Below are positions 4,963 through 43,461 of a DNA stretch of 64,000 nt, piece after piece. Within the stretch, counting starts at the first letter, position 1. Each line of letters opens with the position of its first letter. The DNA comes from Parafrankia discariae (GTDB lineage: Bacteria > Actinomycetota > Actinomycetes > Frankiales > Frankiaceae): positions 166-64,165 of the forward strand of contig NZ_KB891213.1 in the NCBI RefSeq assembly GCF_000373365.1, given 5' to 3'. The notes below the pieces were generated by a model. It ran no database searches and was not told the DNA's origin. It saw only the letters and a list, made by a program, of their open reading frames with translations. The translations under genes and the position numbers were made by a program.

Positions 4963-5097
4963 CCGTTCCGCTGCCCTCCGGCGCCGATTTCGGGGTCCGT
5001 ACTCGGCTCGCCGGGTGGCGCGGGCCGCCGACCCGTCGGGTATCGCCTGGTACCTTGCGACCGTGCCAGACATCGCCGACAGTAGTGGTCACAGTCG

Positions 5098-6864
5098 GTG
5101 ACCGCCGGTTTCGACCGCGGGAGCGGTGACCGGGCGCCGGGTCGACCGGACCACGCGGCCGAGGCGAGCCCGGGAGCGGCCGTCGCCGCCGTGCCGTCCG
5201 GGTCCGCCGTGCCGTCCGCGTCCGGGGCGCCGGCCGGGGTGTCGACCGCGGTGGCGGGGCCACCGGGCCCGGTGGGCGCGCCGGTGGTGTTCGCGGGCTT
5301 CGACGGCCTGCGGGCGATCGCGGCGCTGCTGGTCCTGGTCGTCCACGTGGCGTTCAACAGTGGGCTGACCACCGGCAACCCGATCGGCGTCTACACCGCC
5401 CGTGGGGAGATCGGCGTCGCGGTCTTCTTCCTGATCTCGGGCTTCCTGCTCTACCGCCCGTTCGCCGTGGCGCACCTGAGCGGCCGGAGCGCTCCGGACG
5501 CCGCCGGGTTCTACATCCGCCGGCTGGTGCGGATCATCCCGCTGTACTGGCTGGCGCTGGCGGTGGCGCTCAACGTCGTGTCCAACGACAAGATGGGCGT
5601 CCACGGGTTCCCCGGGCTCCTGCAGACGGCCTTCTTCATGCAGGGCTACCGGAACCACTGGGCCATCCAGGGCCTCACCCAGGCGTGGACGCTCAACGTC
5701 GAGTTCGCCTTCTACATCTCCGTCCCCCTGTACGCCTGGCTGCTCGTCCGCCGCCGGCGGACGCCCGGCGCCCAGTTCAGGGTCGAGCTCGCCGCCCTCG
5801 CCGTGATCTTCGTGATCAGCCGGGTCCTGCACTACGCGCTGATCGGCTCGCGCATCTGGTGGGCCGACGGCTGGACGGTCTGGCTGCCGGTCTGGTGGGA
5901 CCTGTTCGCCATGGGCATGCTGCTCGCCGTCCTCTCCGCGTGGTACGTGCAGAACGGGCGGTCGCCGGCGTGGGCGCGGTGGCGGTGGTCCGGCGAGGCC
6001 TGCTGGCTCGTCGCGGCGTTCTTCTACTGGGTGGCCAGCACCCGGATCACCCTGCCGCTGACGCCGCTGTTCGTGCCCGACCGCACCCAGGACATGGGCC
6101 GGCACCTCTTCTACGGCCTCTTCGGCTTCTTCCTGATCCTGCCCGCGGTGTTCGGGCCGGCCGACCAGGGCCTGGTACGGCGGCTGCTGACCTGCCGCCC
6201 GATGGCCTACCTCGGCCTCATCTCGTACGGGATCTACCTGTGGCACACGGTGGTGATCGAGGTCGTCGCCGAGCACACCGGGACGGCCGCCGGTGAGCTC
6301 GCGTTCGTCCCGTTCTTCCTGCTGGTGCTGGCACTGACCTGCGCGGTCTCCACGATCACCTACTTCCTGGTGGAACGGCCCTGCATGGCGCTCGGCCGGG
6401 AGTGGGCCCGCCGGGTGCGCGCGCGGTCCCGGCCGGTGCCGGCGGGGGCCGGCGGACCGGGCCCCGCCGGCGCGCGGGCGCCGGCCGGCGTCGACGAGCG
6501 CTGGTCGGTGGAGTCCCAGGTGGACGAGAGGTGGCGCCAGGAGCTGTCCGGTGCCGGACACCCCGGAGCCGACGGCGCCCTCGGTGGCGCCCCCGACGGC
6601 GAGTCGGCGCGGACGATGCCGCTGCGGACCGGCCGGGGGGTCGGGGACCGCTCCGGCGCCGGGCCCGGCGCCCGTTCGGGCGACCCGGCGGCGGACCGGT
6701 CACCGGGCCCGGCGCCACGTCCGCGCGCGCGGCCGGGCCGTGGGGTGCCGGAGCGTGGGGTGCCGGGCCGCGGGGTGTCAGGTCCCGGCGGCCCCGGCCC
6801 GGACGGCACCGCGGAGAGCCGACTGGGCCACATTCCCGACCGCGGCCGGGACGATGGCTGGTGA
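5098..6864 (+). CDS. Acyltransferase-3 family membrane O-acyltransferase
   Basis: A 588-residue protein whose first ~60 residues are low-complexity. The acyltransferase-3 core follows: FDGLRAIAALLVLVVHVAF, then EIGVAVFFLISGFLLYRPF, FYIRRLVRIIPLYW and YLGLISYGIYLWHTVV. These are the hallmarks of OafA/NolX-type transferases with about ten membrane helices. Unlike the neighbour at 259-2916 it lacks an SGNH domain; instead it ends in a ~150-residue Gly/Pro/Arg-rich tail with GVPGRGV-type repeats. The GTG at 5098 is the longest reasonable start but has no clear ribosome-binding site, so the N-terminus is uncertain. It belongs with the surface-glycan genes at the left end of the window. Confidence 0.82.
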   Translation: MTAGFDRGSGDRAPGRPDHAAEASPGAAVAAVPSGSAVPSASGAPAGVSTAVAGPPGPVGAPVVFAGFDGLRAIAALLVLVVHVAFNSGLTTGNPIGVYTARGEIGVAVFFLISGFLLYRPFAVAHLSGRSAPDAAGFYIRRLVRIIPLYWLALAVALNVVSNDKMGVHGFPGLLQTAFFMQGYRNHWAIQGLTQAWTLNVEFAFYISVPLYAWLLVRRRRTPGAQFRVELAALAVIFVISRVLHYALIGSRIWWADGWTVWLPVWWDLFAMGMLLAVLSAWYVQNGRSPAWARWRWSGEACWLVAAFFYWVASTRITLPLTPLFVPDRTQDMGRHLFYGLFGFFLILPAVFGPADQGLVRRLLTCRPMAYLGLISYGIYLWHTVVIEVVAEHTGTAAGELAFVPFFLLVLALTCAVSTITYFLVERPCMALGREWARRVRARSRPVPAGAGGPGPAGARAPAGVDERWSVESQVDERWRQELSGAGHPGADGALGGAPDGESARTMPLRTGRGVGDRSGAGPGARSGDPAADRSPGPAPRPRARPGRGVPERGVPGRGVSGPGGPGPDGTAESRLGHIPDRGRDDGW

Positions 6865-9496: not shown

Positions 9497-10285
9497 GTGG
9501 TGGTGATTCGCCTCGGGATGCTCTTGGCCAGCGACGTCTTCGACCTCGGCGCCGCGCCGGCGCGTCCTTACGCGATGCTGGCCGTCGAGGGCCCGGCGGG
9601 GGCGGGGAAGCTCACCCTGGCGCGGCGGCTGACCGCGGCGCCGGCGGCGCTGCACCTGCCCCTGGCGGCACAGACCGACGCCGTGTTCCGGGACCTGATG
9701 CGGTGGCCGAGGGCCCGCGGTGAGCCGCTCGGCGCGGTGCCGGCGAGTCTCGTGCACGCCGCCCGCCTGATCGAGGCCGCCGTCCAGTTCCGGTACCAGG
9801 AGGAGTTCCTGGCGGGTTTCGACCTGGTGGTGGCCGACCGCTGGCTTCAGACCTGGGAGGTCTACTGCGGGGACATCGGCGACCACGCCGAGTGGTACCT
9901 GCAGATCGCCTCGTATGTGCCCGTCCCCGACCTCGTTCTCTACCTGCGCGTCTCACCCGAGGTGGCGGCCGCGCGGCTGGCCCGCCGGGCGGTGGCGCGG
10001 GAGTCGGTGGGGCTGGAGTCGGTGGCGCTGGAGTCGGTGGGGCCGGGGTCGGTGGGGCCGGTGGACGAGGCCGCGGTCCTGCGGGAGGCCGTCGAGGCGT
10101 GCGCGCGCTACGACGAGGTGATGTCCGCCGTCGACTGCGTCGTCGTCGACGCGGACGCGCCGGCCGCGGACGTGCTGGCGGAGGTGACCGGGATCCTGGA
10201 CGCCGTCGGGCTGCCGCGCCCGCCGATCCCCGGGCCGGGTGGCGAGGCGACCGGGCCCTGGCCGGGGCCGCTCAGGGAGGCGTGA
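9497..10285 (+). CDS. Divergent thymidylate-kinase-like protein with altered Walker A
   Basis: A 262-residue paralogue of the neighbouring kinase. Its P-loop reads VEGPAGAGKLTLARRL: the Lys is kept but the following Ser/Thr, which normally helps hold magnesium, is Leu. The DRW motif (VVADRWLQTWEVYCGD) is conserved, as is LYLRVSPEVAAARL. Residues around 170-190 are in-frame repeats (ESVGLESVALESVG), written in DNA at 10011-10062. A GTG at 9497 gives the longest form; the ATG at 9518 is an alternative. The gene is convergent with the P450 gene and overlaps its end by 14 bp. It could be a kinase with altered metal use or a non-catalytic homologue; nothing in the sequence decides this. Confidence 0.7.
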   Translation: MVVIRLGMLLASDVFDLGAAPARPYAMLAVEGPAGAGKLTLARRLTAAPAALHLPLAAQTDAVFRDLMRWPRARGEPLGAVPASLVHAARLIEAAVQFRYQEEFLAGFDLVVADRWLQTWEVYCGDIGDHAEWYLQIASYVPVPDLVLYLRVSPEVAAARLARRAVARESVGLESVALESVGPGSVGPVDEAAVLREAVEACARYDEVMSAVDCVVVDADAPAADVLAEVTGILDAVGLPRPPIPGPGGEATGPWPGPLREA

Positions 10286-11738
10286 AGCGCACCGGGAGCG
10301 CCGCGACCCCGCGCGTCCACACCGACGGGCGCCAGCGCAGGTCCCGCGGTTCGACGGCGAGCTCCAGATCGGGCAGCCGGTCCAGGAGCACCTCGATCGC
10401 CGTGGTCGCGATCGTCTCGGCCGCCATCTGGGCGGGGTAGGGGCAGCGGTGCTCGCCGTGGCCGAATGCCAGATGGGCGTGGTTGCCCGACGGGCGTCCG
10501 GTCGGCTGGGGCCGCGCCCACGGGTCGGAGTTCGCGGCCGACAGGCCGAACAGGAGCAGGTCGCCCGCGCGGATCCAGCGCCCGCCGAGCCGGACGTCGC
10601 GCCGGGCCCACCGGGCGACGAGGTTCTGGATCGGCGGGTCCGCCCACAGCACCTCGGCCATCGCGTCCCCCACGCTGAGCCGTCCGCCGGCCAGGTCGGT
10701 GGCGAACCGCGGGTCGGTCAGCATCAGCCGCAGCGTGTTCCCGATCCAGTCCGCGGTCGGCGCCTGACCGGCGATCAGCGTCGCCATGACGTCCTCGACG
10801 ACCTCTTCGTCGCGCAGGCCGGCCGGGTGGGTGAGCAGCGCCGACACCGCGTCGTCGCCCGGCTGCGCGCGGCGGCGGCGGACCACCCGGGTGAGCATCG
10901 CGTGGGCCCGGCGGCGCGCGTCGCGGGCTCCTGTCCCGCCGCTGACGAGCAGGGTCAGATCCCGGGCGAGCGCGGCCAGGTCGGTGTCGGGCAGCCCCCA
11001 CATCCCGGCCGCGACCATCGCCGGCAGCGGGCTGGCGTACTGGGTCATGAGCTCGGCGCGGCCGTCGCCGGCCAGCGCGTCGATCAGGGCGTCGGCGCCG
11101 CTGGCCGCCCGCGCCCGCAGACCGTGCGGCTCGAACATGCCGAGCACGTCGCCGACGGCGCCCAGCCGGCGGGCGTGGGCGGGCCCGTCGAGGGCCCGCA
11201 GCGACGGCCGCTGGCCGACCATCGACTGCAGCGGCCAGGCCGGCGGGACGCGGTCCCAGGCGTTCCAGATCCGGCAGTCCCGGCCGAACAGGGCCGGGGT
11301 GCCGGCCACGTAGACGACCTCGCGGTAGCCGAGCACCAGCCAGGCCGGGACGTCCCCCTCGAGCAGGACCGGGGCGACCGGGCCGTGCTCGTCGCGGATC
11401 CGCCGGTAGAACGCGGCGCGGTCGTCCCCGGGGCCGTCGGCCGGCAGCCGGACGGCGGTGGTGTGCGCCGGCCAGCGCGCACCGAGATCCGGTCGGGCCG
11501 GCGGGCGGGTGCCCGCCGCGCCGCGTACCGGCCCCCCGCGGGGTCCGCCGGGCGGGGGGCCGGGTGGTCCGGGCGCGGGCTCGCCGGAGGGGGTGTCCTC
11601 GGGCCCGCCGTGGCGGGTGGTCGGTGTCGGGCAGGACGCGCCGTACTGGCGCAGCGCGCCGAGCTGGCGGACGGCGCCGAGCGCGCGGGGCATGCCGCTC
11701 GCGCACGTGCCGAGCTGGCGGGGGTTGGGATGGGTCAT
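10272..11738 (-). CDS. Conservon-associated cytochrome P450 lacking the ExxR motif (CYP157-like), downstream copy
   Basis: A 488-residue protein with a disordered ~80-residue N-terminus and then a bacterial P450 fold. The haem loop FGHGEHRCPYPAQ contains the axial Cys, with Pro where most P450s have Gly after it. The I-helix reads LIAGQAPTADWIGN: Thr is kept but the acidic residue before it is Pro. The K-helix reads MAEVLWADPPIQN, so the Arg of ExxR is Trp. Loss of ExxR is known for the CYP157 family encoded in Streptomyces conservons. A GGAG lies seven bases before the ATG at 11738. The gene is last in conservon A, 58 bp after the other P450. Family call firm; catalytic activity uncertain. 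Confidence 0.85.
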   Translation of the reverse strand: MTHPNPRQLGTCASGMPRALGAVRQLGALRQYGASCPTPTTRHGGPEDTPSGEPAPGPPGPPPGGPRGGPVRGAAGTRPPARPDLGARWPAHTTAVRLPADGPGDDRAAFYRRIRDEHGPVAPVLLEGDVPAWLVLGYREVVYVAGTPALFGRDCRIWNAWDRVPPAWPLQSMVGQRPSLRALDGPAHARRLGAVGDVLGMFEPHGLRARAASGADALIDALAGDGRAELMTQYASPLPAMVAAGMWGLPDTDLAALARDLTLLVSGGTGARDARRRAHAMLTRVVRRRRAQPGDDAVSALLTHPAGLRDEEVVEDVMATLIAGQAPTADWIGNTLRLMLTDPRFATDLAGGRLSVGDAMAEVLWADPPIQNLVARWARRDVRLGGRWIRAGDLLLFGLSAANSDPWARPQPTGRPSGNHAHLAFGHGEHRCPYPAQMAAETIATTAIEVLLDRLPDLELAVEPRDLRWRPSVWTRGVAALPVRFTPP

Positions 11739-11796
11739 GTGCTGTCTCCGGCCTCCGGGTCAGCGTGGTGCCGCGCGGTGCGGCCTGTCGCGGTCC

Positions 11797-13176
11797 TCAC
11801 ACGGGACTGAACCGGACCGGCAGTGCCGTCAGAGCGCGGTTCCACGCGGTCCGCCGCCAGCCGAGGGCATCGGCCGGGACGGCGATCCACATGTTGGGCA
11901 GGCGGTCGAGGAGTGCCTCGACCGCGGTCCGGGTCACGACCTCGGCGATCTCCTGTGCGGGGTACGGGCAGCGGTGCTCGCCGTGGCCGAAGGACAGGTG
12001 GGCGCTGTTGGCGCTGGTCCCGGTACCCGGGTGGGCGTCCGGGGCGCGGCCGCGGCGGACCTGCGGATCGGCGTTGCCGGCCCCGAGCCCGAGCGCGATC
12101 ATGTCGCCGGCCTCGATGCGCTGCCCGCCGAGCTGGGTGTTGCGGGTCGCCCACCGTCCGGCGACGACCTGCATCGGCGTGTCCTCCCACAGGACCTGGT
12201 TCAGCGCCTGCATGACGCTGCGCCGCCCGCCGGACAGGTCGAGGGCGAACGACCCGTCGGTGAGCAGAAGGCGCAGCGAGTTGCCGATCCAGCCGGCGAC
12301 CGCGCGCACGCCGAACCCGAACACCACGGCCAGGTCCTCGACGACCTCCTCGTCGTCGAGCCCGGCCGGGTGGACGATCAGGCGCGAGACGATGTCGTCG
12401 TCGGGATGCTCGCGCCGGTCGGCGAGCAGCCACCGCAGCCGGTCCCGGACCCGCTGGTGGCCCTCGGCCGCGTCCGGGCCGTCGTCGATCAGGACGATCA
12501 GATCGTGCACCAGGCCCGCGGTGTCGACCTCGGGCGGCCCGCACAGCGACGCCAGGACGAGCGCGGGCACCCGGTGCGCGAACGAGTCGATCAGATCGGT
12601 CTCCCCGCGCCCGGCGAAGGCGTCGATCACGTCGTCGGTGATCTCCTCGGCGCGGGCCCGGAGCTCGAAGAGGTCCACCGCGCCGAGGACGTCCTGGACG
12701 GCGGTGTAGCGCCGGCGGTGTTCCGCCCCCTCGGCGCGAAGCATGGACGGTCGGTGCCCGACACCGGGCAGGGCGGCCCAGTCGGGCGGGACGTCGTCCC
12801 AGCCGGCCCAGTGCCGCGGGTCACGGGCGAAGATCTCCGGATGGCTCAGGACGTAGTGCAGCTCCCGGTAGCCGAGGACCAGCCAGGCGGGCAGGCCGCC
12901 GTCGAGCAGCACGGGCGCGACGGCGCCGTGCTCCCGCCGCAGGTCGCGGTAGGCCCGCGTCGGCCCGCGCTGGAACTGCGCCTCGCCCAGGTGGCAGGGC
13001 GGGGTCCGGCCGCCGGCCGGCCGCTCCCGGGCCGTGCCGGTCGGCTCGCGAAGCGACTCCCGTGGATCACGCAGTGGCTCACGCGGCTCGCGCAGCGGCT
13101 CGCGAGCCGGCCGGCGAAGCGGTTCGCGGGCCGGTTCGCGGGCTGGTTCGCGAGCCGGCCCGCGGGCAGTCGTCAT
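11797..13176 (-). CDS. Conservon-associated cytochrome P450 lacking ExxR and the I-helix acid-alcohol pair
   Basis: A 459-residue P450-like protein. The haem-ligand loop FGHGEHRCPYPAQ is intact and identical to that of the next gene. The K-helix is LNQVLWEDTPMQVV, so both Glu and Arg of ExxR are replaced (Gln, Trp). The I-helix reads FGFGVRAVAGWIGN, with neither the acidic residue nor the Thr used for oxygen activation. The first ~50 residues are Arg-Glu-Pro repeats. Its ATG (13174-13176) overlaps the cvnD stop as ATGA, so translation is coupled to the GTPase gene, the usual place of cvnE P450s. It may be a haem-binding sensor or redox partner rather than a monooxygenase; that is inference. 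Confidence 0.85.
   Translation of the reverse strand: MTTARGPAREPAREPAREPLRRPAREPLREPREPLRDPRESLREPTGTARERPAGGRTPPCHLGEAQFQRGPTRAYRDLRREHGAVAPVLLDGGLPAWLVLGYRELHYVLSHPEIFARDPRHWAGWDDVPPDWAALPGVGHRPSMLRAEGAEHRRRYTAVQDVLGAVDLFELRARAEEITDDVIDAFAGRGETDLIDSFAHRVPALVLASLCGPPEVDTAGLVHDLIVLIDDGPDAAEGHQRVRDRLRWLLADRREHPDDDIVSRLIVHPAGLDDEEVVEDLAVVFGFGVRAVAGWIGNSLRLLLTDGSFALDLSGGRRSVMQALNQVLWEDTPMQVVAGRWATRNTQLGGQRIEAGDMIALGLGAGNADPQVRRGRAPDAHPGTGTSANSAHLSFGHGEHRCPYPAQEIAEVVTRTAVEALLDRLPNMWIAVPADALGWRRTAWNRALTALPVRFSPV
13035..13170. repeat. In-frame Arg-Glu-Pro repeat tract at the start of the P450 gene
   Basis: Degenerate 12- and 15-bp units (GCGAGCCGG / CGCAGCGGCTC types) encode REPAREPLREP-like repeats covering most of the first 50 residues of the P450 at 11797-13176. 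The tract lies outside the conserved P450 fold. Confidence 0.7.
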
Positions 13177-36084: not shown

Positions 36085-37485
<1,401 letters not shown>

Positions 37486-37501
37486 CGGTCGGGGGGCGGC
37501 A

Positions 37502-37888
37502 ATGCGGATCAACCTGACCAGCGTCCTGGTCGACGACCAGGACAAGGCGCTGCGCTTCTATACCGAGGTCCTCGGCTTCGTGAAGAAGGCCGAGGTGCCG
37601 TTGGGTGGGTACCGCTGGCTCACGGTCGTCTCCCCGGACGGCCCCGAAGGCGTGGAACTGCTGCTGGAGCCGGACGCGCACCCCGCCGCCCGCCCGTTCA
37701 AGGACGCGCTCGTCGCCGACGGCATCCCCTACACGGCGTTCGCCGTCGACGACGTCCACGCCGAGGTCGCCCGGCTGCGCGCGCTCGGTGTCCGCTTCAC
37801 CCAGGAGCCGACGGAGCTGGGGCCGGTCACCACCGCCGTCCTCGACGACACCTGCGGCAACCTCATCCAGATCGTCCAGCACCACTGA
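37502..37888 (+). CDS. VOC (glyoxalase/bleomycin resistance) family protein
   Basis: A 128-residue protein with the vicinal-oxygen-chelate fold: RINLTSVLVDDQDKALRFYTEVLGF at the start of the first module and VDDVHAEVARLRALGVRF with DTCGNLIQIVQ ending the second. The His and Glu metal ligands of true glyoxalase I are only partly in place, so the substrate is unknown. ATG at 37502 with GGGGGG upstream, 16 bp after lpd. Confidence 0.88.
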   Translation: MRINLTSVLVDDQDKALRFYTEVLGFVKKAEVPLGGYRWLTVVSPDGPEGVELLLEPDAHPAARPFKDALVADGIPYTAFAVDDVHAEVARLRALGVRFTQEPTELGPVTTAVLDDTCGNLIQIVQHH

Positions 37889-37889
37889 G

Positions 37890-37911
37890 CGGCGGAGCCT
37901 CTCCTCCGCCG
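37890..37911 (+). terminator. Short hairpin after the lpd-VOC pair
   Basis: An 8-bp perfect stem (CGGCGGAG and complement) with a 6-base loop starting 2 bases after the VOC stop codon. No T-run, as usual in high-GC actinomycetes. Confidence 0.5.
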
Positions 37912-37976
37912 AATCCCAGTCCACCGAACCTCGCGGCGGCCCCGCGCCGCCTCGGCGGACGGAGGGCTCACCCGAC

Positions 37977-38024
37977 GCGAGTTGTGTCACCAGCACCTGG
38001 CGGGGCGCGGACAACTCGCTTCGA
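37977..38024. repeat. Inverted repeat, copy 2 of a repeated palindrome
   Basis: Arms GCGAGTTGT (37977-37985) and ACAACTCGC (38011-38019) enclose 25 bases. The right arm plus flank (38012-38024) is the reverse complement of the 13-mer TCGAAGCGAGTTG found at 19955-19967. Confidence 0.6.
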
Positions 38025-38048
38025 CCGAACGGCGCGGGAGCCGCGAAC

Positions 38049-39275
38049 TCAGGCGGTGGCCAGGTAGGCCGCCGCCTTCTCCGGGTCGAGGAACCAGTCC
38101 TGGAAGTCCGACGGGTCGTCGAAGCCGTTCACGAACCGTCGGGCCACCGCGGGGTTCGCCTGCGCGGCGCCGAGGATCTGCTGCACGTGCGGGGGCGGGG
38201 GCTGCAGCAGGGCGTTCGTCCAGACCGTGACGTCGTGCGCGCTCGCCCAGTAGCGGTCGAAGGTGGCCTGCATCCACTCCTGGTCGAACGGCTTGTCACC
38301 GTGTTCGAGGATGCTGGCCAGATACGACGTCGCGCACTTCGCGGCGTTGTTCGAGCCCTGGCCGGTGATCGGGTCGTTCGCCACGACGACGTCGGCCATC
38401 CCGAGCACCGCCCCGCCCGCGGGCAGGTTGCCCACCGGCCGCCGCACGACTGGGGTGTACCCGCCGGCCAGGGTCGCGTGGTCGTCGGTGAGCTCGACCT
38501 TCGCGCAGCGCTCGTACTCCCAGGGCAGGAACCGCTCGATGAGGTCCAGGATGCGGCGCAGGTGCTCGGCGGGCTTCGGGTGGTCGTCCCAGCAGTCCAG
38601 CGGGCCGCCCGGGATCCCCTCGAAGAAGAGGATGTCGCAGTTCCCGCTCAGCGTGTACGCCGGGATCATGAACAGCTCGCCGACCCCGGGGATGATGTTG
38701 AACCGCACACCCGGCGCGGTGGGATGCTCCGGCCGGGGCGCCAGGCCGTGCACGTACGCGAGCGACAGCGCGCGCTGGGGGACGGTGTACGGCGAGCGGG
38801 CGGCGTCGCGGTCGAACAGGCCGACCAGCTCGCCCTTGCCGGCGGCGACCACGACGAGGTCGTAGAGATCGACGAGCCCGTTCAGGTCGGCCGTGGTGAC
38901 GCCGTGCAGGATGAGCTTGCCGCCGCGCTCCTCGAACAGCTCGGCCCAGCCGGCCATCTTGACCCGCTGGTCGACCGACTGCGCGTAGTGGTCCAGCGGG
39001 GCGAACCAGTCGAGCGCCCGGCCGCCGTCCGGCCCCGCGATCGACAGCCCGAGCCCCTCGATGCGGACGGTGTCGGCCTCCCAGAGGTTGAGGCCGTGGT
39101 CGCGCTCGGACTGCAGCGCGCTGTGGAACATCGCCTGGGTCGACATGACCCGGCCCCGGCGGATCTCCTCGGGGGAGCGCGCGGACATCACCGTCACGTC
39201 GTAGTCGTGCTCGCGCAGGGTCAGGGCCAGCTGCAGGCCGGACTGGCCCGCACCGACGATCAGGATCTTACGCAT
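38049..39275 (-). CDS. Styrene/indole-monooxygenase-like FAD protein coupled to conservon B
   Basis: A 408-residue flavoprotein. KILIVGAGQSGLQLALTLREHDYDVTV is the FAD-binding Rossmann motif. LYDLVVVAAGKGELVGLF, SPYTVPQRALSLAY, and VVVANDPITGQGSNNAAKCA closely follow the layout of StyA, the epoxidase half of two-component styrene/indole monooxygenases. StyA uses FADH2 from a separate reductase (StyB); none is encoded next to it. The ATG at 39275 overlaps the end of cvnD by 8 bp, so it is made together with the conservon and occupies the place normally held by a cytochrome P450. Substrate unknown; a sensory or redox role is also possible. Confidence 0.82.
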   Translation of the reverse strand: MRKILIVGAGQSGLQLALTLREHDYDVTVMSARSPEEIRRGRVMSTQAMFHSALQSERDHGLNLWEADTVRIEGLGLSIAGPDGGRALDWFAPLDHYAQSVDQRVKMAGWAELFEERGGKLILHGVTTADLNGLVDLYDLVVVAAGKGELVGLFDRDAARSPYTVPQRALSLAYVHGLAPRPEHPTAPGVRFNIIPGVGELFMIPAYTLSGNCDILFFEGIPGGPLDCWDDHPKPAEHLRRILDLIERFLPWEYERCAKVELTDDHATLAGGYTPVVRRPVGNLPAGGAVLGMADVVVANDPITGQGSNNAAKCATSYLASILEHGDKPFDQEWMQATFDRYWASAHDVTVWTNALLQPPPPHVQQILGAAQANPAVARRFVNGFDDPSDFQDWFLDPEKAAAYLATA

Positions 39276-39882
39276 GCGTCCGTGTCCTCCTGGGTTCCGG
39301 GACCTGGGCCAGTGACATCGTGTGCAGAACCAGTTCCCGCAGCACCTGAGCCGTCGACGCCGTCTCGCGGGCGTCGCAGGTGACGAGCGGGATGTCCGGG
39401 CGCAGCGCGAGCGCCTCCCGGACCTCCTCGACGTCGTGCCACAGCTTTCCCTCGAAACGGTTGACGGCGACGATGTACGGGACCGTCGAGTCGTTCTCGA
39501 AGTAGTTCAGCGCGGCGAAGGACTGGTCGAGACGGCGGCTGTCGACGAGAACGATCGCGCCCAGCGCACCGCGCGACAGGTCGTCCCAGAGGAACCAGAA
39601 ACGGGGCTGGCCCGGGGTGCCGAACAGGTACAGCACCAGGTCCGGGTAAAGCGAGATCCGGCCGAAGTCCATCGCGACCGTCGTCGTGCTCTTCCCGCCG
39701 CTCATGGACAGGTCGTCGATGCCTTCACTGGCCTCGGTCATCCACGCCTCCGTGCTGAGCGGAGGAACCTCCGAGATCGACCTGACCAGCGTGGTCTTGC
39801 CCACTCCGAACCCGCCCGCGATCACGATCTTCGCGGAGATCGCCGTGGCGGGGTCGAGTTCGTCGGCGTCGGTCGGGGTCAT
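39268..39882 (-). CDS. cvnD: CvnD, conservon B small GTPase
   Basis: A 204-residue GTPase with P-loop IVIAGGFGVGKTTLVRS, switch region STEAWMTEAS, TTVAMDFGRI, TPGQPRFWFLWDD at the G3 position and VNRFEG at G4. It is the paralogue of the CvnD at 13173. The ATG at 39882 is preferred because GGAG lies five bases before it; a GTG at 39888 is in frame but poorly placed. It overlaps the StyA-like gene by 8 bp. Expected to be the membrane-associated G-protein of the module. Confidence 0.92.
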   Translation of the reverse strand: MTPTDADELDPATAISAKIVIAGGFGVGKTTLVRSISEVPPLSTEAWMTEASEGIDDLSMSGGKSTTTVAMDFGRISLYPDLVLYLFGTPGQPRFWFLWDDLSRGALGAIVLVDSRRLDQSFAALNYFENDSTVPYIVAVNRFEGKLWHDVEEVREALALRPDIPLVTCDARETASTAQVLRELVLHTMSLAQVPEPRRTRTHA

Positions 39883-39918
39883 GCCCACTCCACACCGCCG
39901 TCCGGACCCGGAGTCGCG

Positions 39919-40311
39919 TCAGACCGGGAGCTCCCGCAGGCCACTGAGAATCCTTTCGAGCATGTTTCGATCATGGTGGTAGGTGTGGGCCGTGGGGTGG
40001 ATGAGGATCGCCCCCTGTGCGGCCAGATCGCTGATCAGGACGCGGACCACCCCGAGCGGGATCGACAGCATCACCGAGAGCTCGGCGATGGACAGCTGCC
40101 CCCGGGCGCGTTCGTACAGCGCCTTGGACTCGGGCATCAGCGTCTCGCTGAGCGTCGGGTCGTAGCTCGGCACCGAGACCAGGGTCTCGACGAGCAGGTG
40201 ATGCCGGGCCCTCGTCCGGCCCCCGGTGAGGGCGTAGGGGCGGATCCGCTTGCTGCGCGGGCCACGCTTCGGCCGTCCGTTCTGTGCGGAGTCTTCAGAC
40301 ATGCTCTTCAC
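39919..40311 (-). CDS. cvnC: CvnC, DUF742 protein of conservon B
   Basis: A DUF742 protein of up to 130 residues: RIRPYALTGGRTRARHHLLVETLV, then LSIAELSVMLSIPLGVVRVLISDLAAQGAIL (winged helix) and LERILSGLREL at the end. The first ~20 residues are basic. GTG at 40311 gives the longest form; the ATG at 40302 is an equally good start. It is 36 bp upstream of cvnD. Confidence 0.9.
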   Translation of the reverse strand: MKSMSEDSAQNGRPKRGPRSKRIRPYALTGGRTRARHHLLVETLVSVPSYDPTLSETLMPESKALYERARGQLSIAELSVMLSIPLGVVRVLISDLAAQGAILIHPTAHTYHHDRNMLERILSGLRELPV

Positions 40312-40396
40312 GATTCTGGTCCGTCCCCCGTCCTGGTCCGTGCGTCGCCCGCCGCGGCGGGATCATCCGTGCCGTGATCCGCCGCGTTGTCCCGGC

Positions 40397-40840
40397 TCAG
40401 CTCGGTACCTGGCGTCCGACCAGGACGCGGCGCAGGTCCGCGCGCCGGTCCGGGGTGAGCGCGTGCCCGGCGTGCAGCACGAACTGTGTCATCTCGTAGC
40501 CGACCACCTTCATGTCGCAGTCCGGTCCGGTCAGCACGGCGAGTCCCGCTCCCTCGTCGATGCTCATGAACAGGAAGTAGCCACCGCTGAGCCGCACGAT
40601 GATCTGCTCGCAGGTTCCCCGGTCGAACAACGTCGCACTGTTGCGGGCAAGGCTGAGCATCGCGCTGGCGATCGCCGCGAGCTGGTCCCGCTCCGCGGAG
40701 CTCACCCCGTCGGACGCGGTGAGCGACAGGCCGTCGGACGAGAGGATCAGGGCATGGGTGACACCGTGGACCTTGCCGACGAAGTCATTGATCAGCCAGC
40801 TGAAGTCGTGGTCCGCGCGGCGGTTGGTCTGATCCGTCAC
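40397..40840 (-). CDS. cvnB: CvnB, roadblock/LC7 protein of conservon B
   Basis: A 147-residue roadblock/LC7 protein: FSWLINDFVGKVHGVTHALILSSDGLSL, RDQLAAIASAMLSLARNS and GLAVLTGPDCDMKVVGYEM. The GTG start at 40840 overlaps the cvnA stop as GTGA, so translation is coupled. Roadblock proteins regulate Ras-like GTPases, here the cvnD product. It is 85 bp from cvnC. Confidence 0.92.
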   Translation of the reverse strand: MTDQTNRRADHDFSWLINDFVGKVHGVTHALILSSDGLSLTASDGVSSAERDQLAAIASAMLSLARNSATLFDRGTCEQIIVRLSGGYFLFMSIDEGAGLAVLTGPDCDMKVVGYEMTQFVLHAGHALTPDRRADLRRVLVGRQVPS

Positions 40841-42546
40841 TGCTGTGTCCCCGTCACTGGTGAGTCCCCGTCACTGGTGGGTCCTGAGTCCCCTCGCTGG
40901 TGTTCGTGGGCGATCCGTTCGCCTTCGCTGAAGGCGTCGAGATCCGCTAGTAGTCTCGCGTGGTCCGCGGCCCGGGCCGAAAGCGCCTGCGCCGCCGGCG
41001 ATCCGCCCTCCGCCGTACCCGGCTCCGCGCCCGCGCCCGCATCCGTCGCGGCCGGCGCTGTGTCCGCCGCAGCCGGGGTGACCGGTGTGACCGGGGTGGC
41101 CGGGGTGATGGCCGTGGGCGCGGTGTTCGCGGGCGGGCGGGCGCCGTCGCCGGCGGGGTTCTTGAGGCTGCGCGACACCCGGCGGGGGAGACCGCTCGCG
41201 GTCGTGCCACCGATCAGTGCGTCCGCCGCGGGTGGCGAGGACAGCGTCACCCCGGCCGGGCCCGGTGTCGGCCCGGCCGGTGCACCGCCCGCCTGGGTGA
41301 ACAGCGTGGATTCCCGCGGGTGGCCCGCTCCGTTGGCGGACTGTTTCCCGCCCGGAGCCCCGCCCGGAGCCCGGTACTGGAGGTCCGCCCGCGGTTGACC
41401 GTCGCGCGCGGCGGGACGCGCGGCCGGACCCGGCGCGGTCGGGTCGCCGTCGCGGACCACCACGGTCTGCGTGCCCGACCAGCTGCTCTCGGGCAGTTCG
41501 CAGATCAGGGCGGAGGGGATGAGCACCGAGGCGGTCGTCCCGTGGGGGTGGCGGCGCTCCAGCCAGATCCGCAGATCGTGGCGGATCGCGAGCCGGCGCA
41601 CCACGGCCAGGCCCATGTGGCGCACCGCCTCGTCGTCCAGGACGGGGTCGCCGGCGAGTCGCTCGTTGAGCTGGCGCAGCCGGTCCGGCGGGAGCCCGAT
41701 GCCCTCGTCCTCGACCCGCAGCAGCGCGCTGCCCAGCTCCGTGAGGTGCACGCCGACCCGCACCGGCGCGGTCGGGGGAGACGACTTGGTCGCGTTGTCC
41801 AGCAGCTCCGCGAGCAGCCGTCCGACGTCCTCGGCGGCGAAGCCGACCACGCCGAGCGGGACCACCCGGCCGATCGTGACCCGCGAGTAGTGGTCGATGG
41901 CCGACATCGCCGCGCGCACGACGTCGACCAGAGCGGTCGTGTCGGAGGAGGCGCCGCCGGCGTCACGGCCCGCGAGTACCCGCAGGTTCTCGGCATTGCG
42001 GCGCAGCCGGGTGACGAGGTGGTCCAGCCGGTACAGCTCGGCGAGGCGGTCGGTGTCCTCCTCCTTGGCCTCCATGTCCTCCAGCTGGGAGAGCAGGGAG
42101 TCGACCAGGTTGAGGTCGCGCAGCGCCACGTCCGCGCAGATCGCGGAGAGCGCCTCGGCCGCGGGTGCCCCGGCCGCGGCCGGGCCGGTGGAGGCGGCGG
42201 GCAGCGGGGACGGTACGGCCCGCCTGCCATGGGCCGACTGTTCCGCGGCGCCGGCGCCGGCGGTGCGGGTGGACGGGGCCGACGTGTGAATCCCCGCCGT
42301 CGGAGCCCCGCGGGGCGACCTCGCCGCCCCCGCGGCCGCCGCGGGGGCGCCCGGCCGGACCCACGGCTCGTTCGCCGACCTGCGGCCAGGGGCCGCCGGG
42401 CGGCTGACGAGGCCGGCGCGGGCCGGCTGCCCGGGCTGCGGTGGGGAATTCGGGAGATCACCACCCCGCAGCTGGGCCGCTATGCCGCGGGAGCCTCCCA
42501 GGAGCGCGCGGGATCGGTTGAGCAGGTCTCGTGCCCGCGTCGTCAT
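40837..42546 (-). CDS. cvnA: CvnA, soluble histidine-kinase-like protein of conservon B
   Basis: A 569-residue CvnA homologue without any membrane segment. Residues 1-130 are Ala/Pro/Gly-rich; LYRLDHLVTRLRRNAENLRVLAG is the H-box helix, AELLDNATKSSPP the ATPase N-box, VEDEGIGLPP the G1 box and MGLAVVRRLAIRHDLRIWL the G2 box; about 240 disordered residues follow. The ATPase motifs are better preserved than in conservon A (full DEGIGL). Missing membrane helices and sensor domain separate it from the CvnA at 14653, which has two helices. ATG at 42546. Confidence 0.92.
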   Translation of the reverse strand: MTTRARDLLNRSRALLGGSRGIAAQLRGGDLPNSPPQPGQPARAGLVSRPAAPGRRSANEPWVRPGAPAAAAGAARSPRGAPTAGIHTSAPSTRTAGAGAAEQSAHGRRAVPSPLPAASTGPAAAGAPAAEALSAICADVALRDLNLVDSLLSQLEDMEAKEEDTDRLAELYRLDHLVTRLRRNAENLRVLAGRDAGGASSDTTALVDVVRAAMSAIDHYSRVTIGRVVPLGVVGFAAEDVGRLLAELLDNATKSSPPTAPVRVGVHLTELGSALLRVEDEGIGLPPDRLRQLNERLAGDPVLDDEAVRHMGLAVVRRLAIRHDLRIWLERRHPHGTTASVLIPSALICELPESSWSGTQTVVVRDGDPTAPGPAARPAARDGQPRADLQYRAPGGAPGGKQSANGAGHPRESTLFTQAGGAPAGPTPGPAGVTLSSPPAADALIGGTTASGLPRRVSRSLKNPAGDGARPPANTAPTAITPATPVTPVTPAAADTAPAATDAGAGAEPGTAEGGSPAAQALSARAADHARLLADLDAFSEGERIAHEHQRGDSGPTSDGDSPVTGTQQ

Positions 42547-42804
42547 CGCGTCTCACATGCTCTCGTCGGATACGGGTTCCGCCCGCTTCTGCCAACCCCC
42601 GTGTCGGTGAGCTATGCAATCAGACGTCCCGGTTTGCGTCCAACCTGTGGGCATCGTGGTGGGCGCAGCTCGATCTGCATGCCGCGTTCCGTTGTTCCCG
42701 GTTCATTCGGGCCGGCGTGTGGGCACTCGTTGGGCCATGGCCGAGTCGTCGGTGCCCGGCCGTAGGATGCGCGCGTCCCGCCGGTTCGCGGCCCAGGAGC
42801 GTCG

Positions 42805-43461
42805 ATGCCCGAGTTCGCAGGCTTCCCCACCGAAGCGCTGATCTTCTTCGAGGGCCTCGAGGCCGACAACAGCAAGGCCTACTGGACGGATCATCGCGAC
42901 ACCTACGAGAAGGCCGTCCGGGCCCCGATGCTCGCCCTGCTCGACGCCCTCGAGCCGGAGTTCGGCGCACCGCATGTTTTCCGTCCGCACAGGGACGTCC
43001 GATTCTCGAAGGACAAGTCGCCCTACAAGACGGCGATCGGCGCCCACAACGAGCGGGGCGGCTACGTCGAGGTCTCCGCCCGCGGGCTGATGATCGCCAC
43101 CGGTTACTGGCGGACCGCGCCGGACCAGGTGGAACGCCTGCGCGCCGCGGTCGCCGACGACCGGACGGGCCCCCGGCTTGAGGCGCTGGTGCGCGAGCTG
43201 CGGGAGGCGGGATACGGGGTGTCGGGCACGACGCTCAAGACCCGGCCGCGGGGCTACGACGCGGATCACCCACGCATCGAGCTGCTGCGGCACCGGACCC
43301 TCACGGCCCACCGTGAGTTCGGCGAGCCGGCGTGGCTGGCCGAGCCGGAATGCGTCGAGCACGTGGCGGCGGGCTGGCGGGAGACGCGCCGGCTGACCGG
43401 CTGGCTCGACGACCACGTCGGCCCGTCCCGCCTGCCCGTGGCCCGTCGCGGTTCCCGGTGA
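42805..43461 (+). CDS. DUF2461 family protein
   Basis: A 218-residue DUF2461 (TIGR02453) protein. The family signature is clear: ALIFFEGLEADNSKAYWTDHRDTYE, FRPHRDVRFSKDKSPYKTAIGA, GGYVEVSARGLMIATGYW and GTTLKTRPRGYDADHPRIELL. Cytosolic; the biochemical function of the family is not established. It is divergent from conservon B across a 258-bp gap and has no same-strand partner. Confidence 0.9.
   Translation: MPEFAGFPTEALIFFEGLEADNSKAYWTDHRDTYEKAVRAPMLALLDALEPEFGAPHVFRPHRDVRFSKDKSPYKTAIGAHNERGGYVEVSARGLMIATGYWRTAPDQVERLRAAVADDRTGPRLEALVRELREAGYGVSGTTLKTRPRGYDADHPRIELLRHRTLTAHREFGEPAWLAEPECVEHVAAGWRETRRLTGWLDDHVGPSRLPVARRGSR

Follow-up and report, generated by a model that had tools for sequence, protein, structure and literature searches.

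Conservons with a P450 or a GAF-domain protein encoded after cvnD have already been published, and in the main text of the 2026 CvnF8 paper, which lists only these two kinds of accessory, the corresponding genes (cvnE for the P450, cvnF for the GAF protein) occur alongside CvnA proteins that have no sensory domain, and CvnF8 is shown to bind CvnA8 and to stimulate it (PMC13343842). A fifth gene product is also described for the mycobacterial mfp conservon, where GTP-bound MfpB binds MfpA in the account given there (PMC4316618). Here we describe a conservon of Parafrankia discariae, conservon B, carried on a stretch of 64,000 nucleotides (hereafter “the window”; assembly GCF_000373365.1, contig NZ_KB891213.1, positions 166 to 64,165), in which the gene directly after cvnD encodes a flavoprotein related to indole monooxygenases. 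No description of this pairing was found in the literature searched, which covers few subscription journals, and neither “monooxygenase” nor “flavin” occurs in the main text of PMC13343842 or of PMC8510531.

Conservon B resembles the CvnE/CvnF conservons, as presented in these two main texts, in its cvnA-B-C-D order (kinase-like CvnA, Roadblock CvnB, DUF742 CvnC and Ras-like GTPase CvnD, with Pfam matches in this order on a single strand, Table 1), in an accessory gene placed directly after cvnD, and in a CvnA that lacks a sensory domain in the lineage of the window. It differs in that its accessory gene codes for a group E flavoprotein rather than a P450 or GAF protein (only Smoa_sbd and weak matches to flavin adenine dinucleotide (FAD) oxidoreductases were obtained), and in that the CvnA of the window is without any membrane segment, while flavoprotein-linked members from Streptomycetaceae mostly retain two. 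The mfp conservon likewise has its fifth gene directly after the conservon, and MfpA, in the part of PMC4316618 that treats it, meets the GTPase, whereas for the flavoprotein such a contact is putative. The 8-bp overlap between the flavoprotein gene and the end of cvnD, which a preliminary description of the window had pointed out, can be read directly in the sequence (flavoprotein ATG at 39275-39273, cvnD stop TAA at 39270-39268) and suggests that the flavoprotein gene is co-transcribed with cvnABCD. The next gene (VOC/glyoxalase-like, 37502-37888) has the opposite orientation, so that the flavoprotein gene closes the set.

The flavoprotein is, judging from its sequence, indole-monooxygenase-like, and belongs to a sister group rather than to the indole monooxygenases themselves. 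It is 95% identical to a Parafrankia soli protein, and its full-length identity is 54% to VpIndA1 of Variovorax paradoxus (7z4x) and 53% to the Acinetobacter baumannii enzyme (9lrq), both indole monooxygenases and its closest relatives of solved structure, but 29–31% to the styrene enzymes (3ihm, 9qi9). Its AlphaFold2 model (mean pLDDT 92.4) aligns with 9lrq and 7z4x over 404–405 residues (Z-scores of 60.1 and 59.5, respectively, vs. 49–50.5 for the styrene enzymes), and the group E fold and FAD-site motifs of indole monooxygenases are both present (GAGQSG near the N-terminus and DPITGQGSN at residues 301–309, on either side of a Smoa_sbd domain at residues 146–256). Fingerprint residues are given in PMC13101512 as S46-Q48-M50-V/I73-I76-A96 for indole monooxygenases and N46-V48-H50-Y73-H76-S96 for styrene monooxygenases; the flavoprotein reads S-Q-M-I-L-A, i.e., five of the six indole-type positions, with Leu in place of Ile76, and none of the styrene-type ones. 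This Leu is found in 124 of the 139 conservon-linked proteins that begin with S-Q-M, where true indole monooxygenases have Ile.

In a tree of 225 sequences, all 168 linked proteins fell within a single clade of 195 (support 94), which adjoins the clade of VpIndA1 and 9lrq (support 81 at the join), the only two characterized indole monooxygenases included, so that the flavoprotein lies outside the clade of characterized enzymes. Other differences from VpIndA1 and 9lrq are the lack of a nearby reductase gene and the setting in a signaling operon. The “StyA-like” label of the preliminary description thus had to be revised: the flavoprotein shares with StyA the group E fold and the PF17885 domain, but it reaches only 227 bits against the NCBI StyA model (cut-off 550), and fingerprint, identity and tree likewise rule out the name styrene monooxygenase. 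Among the 168 linked proteins, GxGxxG is kept in all and DPxxGQGxN in 142. A divergent linked subgroup (genus code g40 and relatives, e.g., L167, L174 and L182) has 41–44% identity and an IQT-type rather than SQM pocket fingerprint, which suggests a different ligand.

The distribution of the pairing was evaluated at two scales. A scan with the window flavoprotein as query, which reaches near relatives only, recovered 82 proteins at 77 loci (78 before L105 was dropped, with 29 residues matched and no protein above the score threshold; L067 and L068 are one strain): 76 were encoded directly after cvnD, five were tandem second copies, and the sole free protein came from a Xanthobacteraceae metagenome-assembled genome. 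Across a class-wide sample, PF17885 was matched in 94 of 393 genomes. Within Frankiaceae 19 out of 20 genes were directly linked, the remaining one being truncated by a contig end, and among 122 PF17885 reading frames outside Frankiaceae (one gene, L200, being counted twice as two fragments) 65 were direct, three tandem, 50 without an upstream conservon gene and four ambiguous. Placed outside these 68 linked frames were L191 (CvnB-C, no CvnD), L211 (atypical CvnD), and L218 and L219 (weak CvnB ~1.2 kb upstream), although L191 is labeled linked in the flavoprotein tree and L185 was counted as linked despite a cvnD split by ~1.3 kb. The preliminary description had held that a majority of StyA-like relatives located away from conservons would speak against its proposal; such is not the case for near relatives (35/36 linked at ≥62% identity to the window flavoprotein, outside Frankiaceae), but it is for some of the more distant ones (9/15 linked at 55–62%, 0/14 at 45–55%, 24/41 at 35–45% and 1/14 below 35%).

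Overall, 160 direct cvnD-flavoprotein pairs were available, with a spacing of ≤146 bp in all but one and the same 8-bp overlap (−8) as in the window in 26, and the flanking genes varied between the linked loci examined (Na/H exchanger, Ku or NlpC/P60, and the VOC protein in the window). In L044, L049, L093, L096, L100, L160 and L206, a single conservon is followed by more than one flavoprotein gene in tandem, with three in a row in L206.

Evolutionarily, the linked conservons appear as one subtype. In a tree built from the joined sequences of CvnB, CvnC and CvnD, 159 of the 161 linked conservons fell into a single clade (support 92), of which the interrupted conservon L185 is the 160th member; the linked conservons placed elsewhere are L229 and L160, and all of the 21 other conservons compared, a small set mostly from four genomes, fell outside. 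This indicates that conservon and flavoprotein were mostly inherited together, from a time before the families represented here diverged, and that linkage was later lost in some lineages or arose by recruitment in a few. Conservon B would then belong to a distinct conservon subtype, with a flavoprotein of a sister clade of the indole monooxygenases as its fifth gene product. The suggestion that conservons are a general GTPase chassis for varied redox proteins accordingly survives in part: the pairing is real, recurrent and not due to chance, but the free plugging-in of redox proteins as main mode does not fit conservons that, against this limited comparison set, mostly form one clade.

The loci were also compared for flavin reductases, using six flavin reductases of the P. 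discariae genome as queries against the fetched flanks (short Frankiaceae loci numbered below 28 were left out, and some flanks end at contig ends). A reductase was detected in none of 141 linked loci vs. 15 of 52 unlinked ones (Fisher p-value 5e-10, uncorrected for shared ancestry). Among the unlinked proteins, the seven of Pseudonocardiaceae type that lie closest to VpIndA1 had one in 7/7 loci, and an AraC regulator was the upstream gene in both of the two such proteins checked. That no reductase adjoins the window flavoprotein, as first noticed in the preliminary description, was borne out at the genome scale, where none of the seven Flavin_Reduct matches lies on the contig of the window.

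The CvnA of conservon B has no transmembrane segment, and HATPase_c is its only Pfam match (from Pfam, hydropathy and an AlphaFold2 model). The low-confidence model (mean pLDDT 58.8), used for broad layout only, predicts a short N-terminal helix (residues 2–27), a long low-confidence stretch (29–126), two long helices, the HATPase domain (~206–350) and a C-terminal helix. H176, within the long helices, is invariant in an alignment of 15 CvnA, as are the last four residues of a GLPRR motif (452–456; L453-P454-R455-R456 in 15/15), and the window CvnA thus carries the C-terminal LPxR motif described for conservon kinases in the relevant part of PMC4316618. A membrane-spanning CvnA with a sensor domain is presented as common but variable in the main text of PMC13343842, so that the lack of both here does not set this protein apart from conservon kinases.

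Among the linked loci, a CvnA was found for 135 of 161 CvnD genes, the other 26 having none in the fetched stretch, and some genomes were assigned to Streptomycetaceae or Pseudonocardiaceae solely by tree position. At a hydropathy cut-off of 1.7, none of the 89 linked CvnA outside Streptomycetaceae had a transmembrane segment (maximum hydropathy 0.35–1.69, two groups reaching 1.69), whereas 20 out of 21 CvnA of other conservons had a clear hydrophobic one (hydropathy at least 2.19; among the control loci fetched, L245 yielded no CvnD, and of two sites in L261 one was recovered). The N-terminal helix of the window CvnA (residues 1–27; 42466–42546, minus strand; MTTRAR-LL-RSR-LL type) is conserved in the Frankiaceae and Pseudonocardiaceae relatives without membrane segments, and may serve in docking to the membrane or to a partner. 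SCO5540, considered as a Streptomyces coelicolor homologue, is CvnA2 and was rejected.

Taken as a whole, the explanation we prefer, tentatively and at somewhat less than even chances, is that the flavoprotein is an accessory subunit of the conservon switch which acts on CvnA, and on our best reading it would constitute a third accessory class beside CvnE and CvnF. In the cytosol, it would bind FAD or FADH2 together with a small aromatic ligand and alter the activity of the cytosolic CvnA kinase, and CvnA, via CvnB and CvnC, would set the GTP/GDP state of CvnD. The GAF accessory CvnF8 has been described in such a role, and here a flavin/aromatic pocket would take the place of the GAF pocket. 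An input direction is favored because of the correlation with CvnA membrane segments and the CvnF8 precedent, but both the signaling role and its direction are putative, and the least secure steps are contact with CvnA rather than CvnD, and signaling rather than plain catalysis. It is tempting to speculate further that this is an oxygenase turned sensor, i.e., a former indole monooxygenase which, separated from the reductase that once served it, would inform a cytosolic kinase and Ras-like GTPase of the FADH2/oxygen state of the cell or of an indole-type signal, with a flavin-and-aromatic pocket instead of a membrane receptor, although we consider this fuller scenario rather unlikely.

Conservons adjoining indole prenyltransferase gene clusters (as described in the portion of PMC3617294 concerned) offer a published parallel of conservons next to indole or tryptophan chemistry. 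In these clusters, the prenyltransferase is accompanied by a tryptophanase or by a flavin monooxygenase of a kind different from the one here. An indole-type ligand therefore merits testing, although the parallel is no proof of one.

Several observations weigh against an accessory role on CvnA. In Streptomycetaceae, 44 of 46 linked CvnA have two transmembrane segments ~280–350 residues apart, and the one scanned with Pfam bears a NIT sensor domain, so that there the flavoprotein is no simple replacement for a sensor: the pattern of a flavoprotein accompanying a sensor-less CvnA fits 89/89 cases outside this family and fails in 44/46 inside it. Of 35 genomes from this order, a CvnB at ≥71% identity is present in 23, of which 19 have PF17885 and four are without any match (the other 12 have neither such a CvnB nor PF17885). 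These four belong to the genus of the window and carry a complete orthologous cvnABCD, with CvnB 86–88% identical and a CvnA that has no transmembrane segment either. In three of them, the gene after cvnD is a homologue of the lipoamide-dehydrogenase gene of the window (36085–37485), which indicates that the flavoprotein gene is missing there, and the fourth has a different neighborhood. The flavoprotein is therefore dispensable for retention of the conservon, which weakens any model of obligate input, and a strict replacement-sensor model fails both in these genomes and in Streptomycetaceae. In addition, 27 of the 195 proteins of the flavoprotein clade are unlinked (with eight changes of linkage by parsimony on the tree), a Rosetta-stone search revealed no flavoprotein fused to a Cvn protein, and the linkage counts and Fisher value, being unweighted for shared ancestry, overstate the independent evidence.

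Alternatively, the flavoprotein might be an output effector, a client of CvnD whose oxygenase activity is switched or placed when the GTP-bound form binds it. This could account for the close coupling to cvnD in particular, of which the 8-bp overlap is part, as well as for the occurrence beside a NIT-bearing CvnA, which already provides an input sensor, in Streptomycetaceae, and it has a precedent in MfpA and GTP-MfpB as reported in PMC4316618. We nonetheless judge it unlikely, since the membrane-free CvnA of all linked cases outside Streptomycetaceae is better explained by an input role, and a regulated enzyme with no dedicated reductase nearby would need one from elsewhere.

Equally improbable in our estimation is an ordinary enzyme, i.e., an indole- or aryl-epoxidizing monooxygenase merely co-expressed with the conservon, which would make or remove a signaling or toxic aromatic with FADH2 from reductases encoded elsewhere. 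The fold and FAD motifs are intact, five of the six fingerprint positions agree, the seven Flavin_Reduct genes elsewhere in the genome could act in trans, and the section of PMC13101512 on skaA places a reductase gene 7 kb from it. Against this stand the contrast between linked loci and the nearest unlinked group, which always keeps its reductase, the prevalence of Leu76 where true indole monooxygenases have Ile, and the strongly altered, IQT-type pocket of one linked subgroup. Simple hitchhiking, i.e., adjacency by descent with no functional tie, is compatible with the mostly vertical linkage within clades and with the gene lost and conservon kept in the four same-genus genomes, but is very unlikely given that the cvnA-B-C-D-flavoprotein order is retained in different families, with cvnD and the flavoprotein gene overlapping or closely spaced, while the flanking genes examined differ.

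If the flavoprotein is a third accessory family as we propose, it would offer a concrete test of conservon sensing, as FAD and indole-like ligand chemistry can be assayed directly; the nearest free-standing relatives, which keep their reductase, provide natural enzyme controls, and the four genomes with cvnABCD and no flavoprotein a natural deletion series. Were it to act as an enzyme and not as a sensor, it would instead suggest that an aromatic metabolite is linked to conservon signaling.

The coordinates of conservon B are listed in Table 1. The end of cvnA and the start of cvnB share 4 bp, and the P-loop GGFGVGKTTL can be read in the cvnD translation. Scanning 37400–43000 for promoters and terminators returned none, but such a scan says little for this type of organism.

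Table 1. Features of conservon B, in window positions, with the match or observation on which each rests.
Feature	Position	Strand	Evidence
cvnA, histidine-kinase-like protein, 569 aa	40837..42546	minus	HATPase_c 1.8e-15, sole Pfam match
cvnB, Roadblock/LC7 protein	40397..40840	minus	PF03259 5.8e-17
cvnC, DUF742 protein	39919..40311	minus	PF05331 3.7e-28
cvnD, small Ras-like GTPase, MglA/CvnD type	39268..39888	minus	PF03029 (ATP_bind_1) 1.7e-27
Flavoprotein, indole-monooxygenase-like, group E, 408 aa	38049..39275	minus	Smoa_sbd PF17885 6e-45
Overlap of cvnD stop and flavoprotein start, 8 bp	39268..39275	minus	Sequence
AGGAGG, Shine-Dalgarno-like, within cvnD	39286..39291	minus	10 bases upstream of flavoprotein ATG; putative function

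Two individual loci complement this picture. In L185 (minus strand, ~5013–6347), other DNA of ~1.3 kb apparently interrupts cvnD, and the flavoprotein gene nevertheless follows. In L186, which is not conservon-linked, reductase and flavoprotein matches lie in one reading frame, as in StyA2B-type fusions.

Finally, the window contains a second conservon, conservon A, followed by two P450-like genes (10272–13176, minus strand). The preliminary description had the flavoprotein of conservon B standing in the place of a P450 there, and the gene after the cvnD of conservon A (11797–13176) does match solved P450s (best CYP154C1, 1.6e-33), with no Pfam match for its product at a threshold of 0.001. 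The second gene (10272–11738) gives a P450 match under the Pfam cut-off. Conservons with paired P450s are known, and the P450-like pair of conservon A is similar to these.

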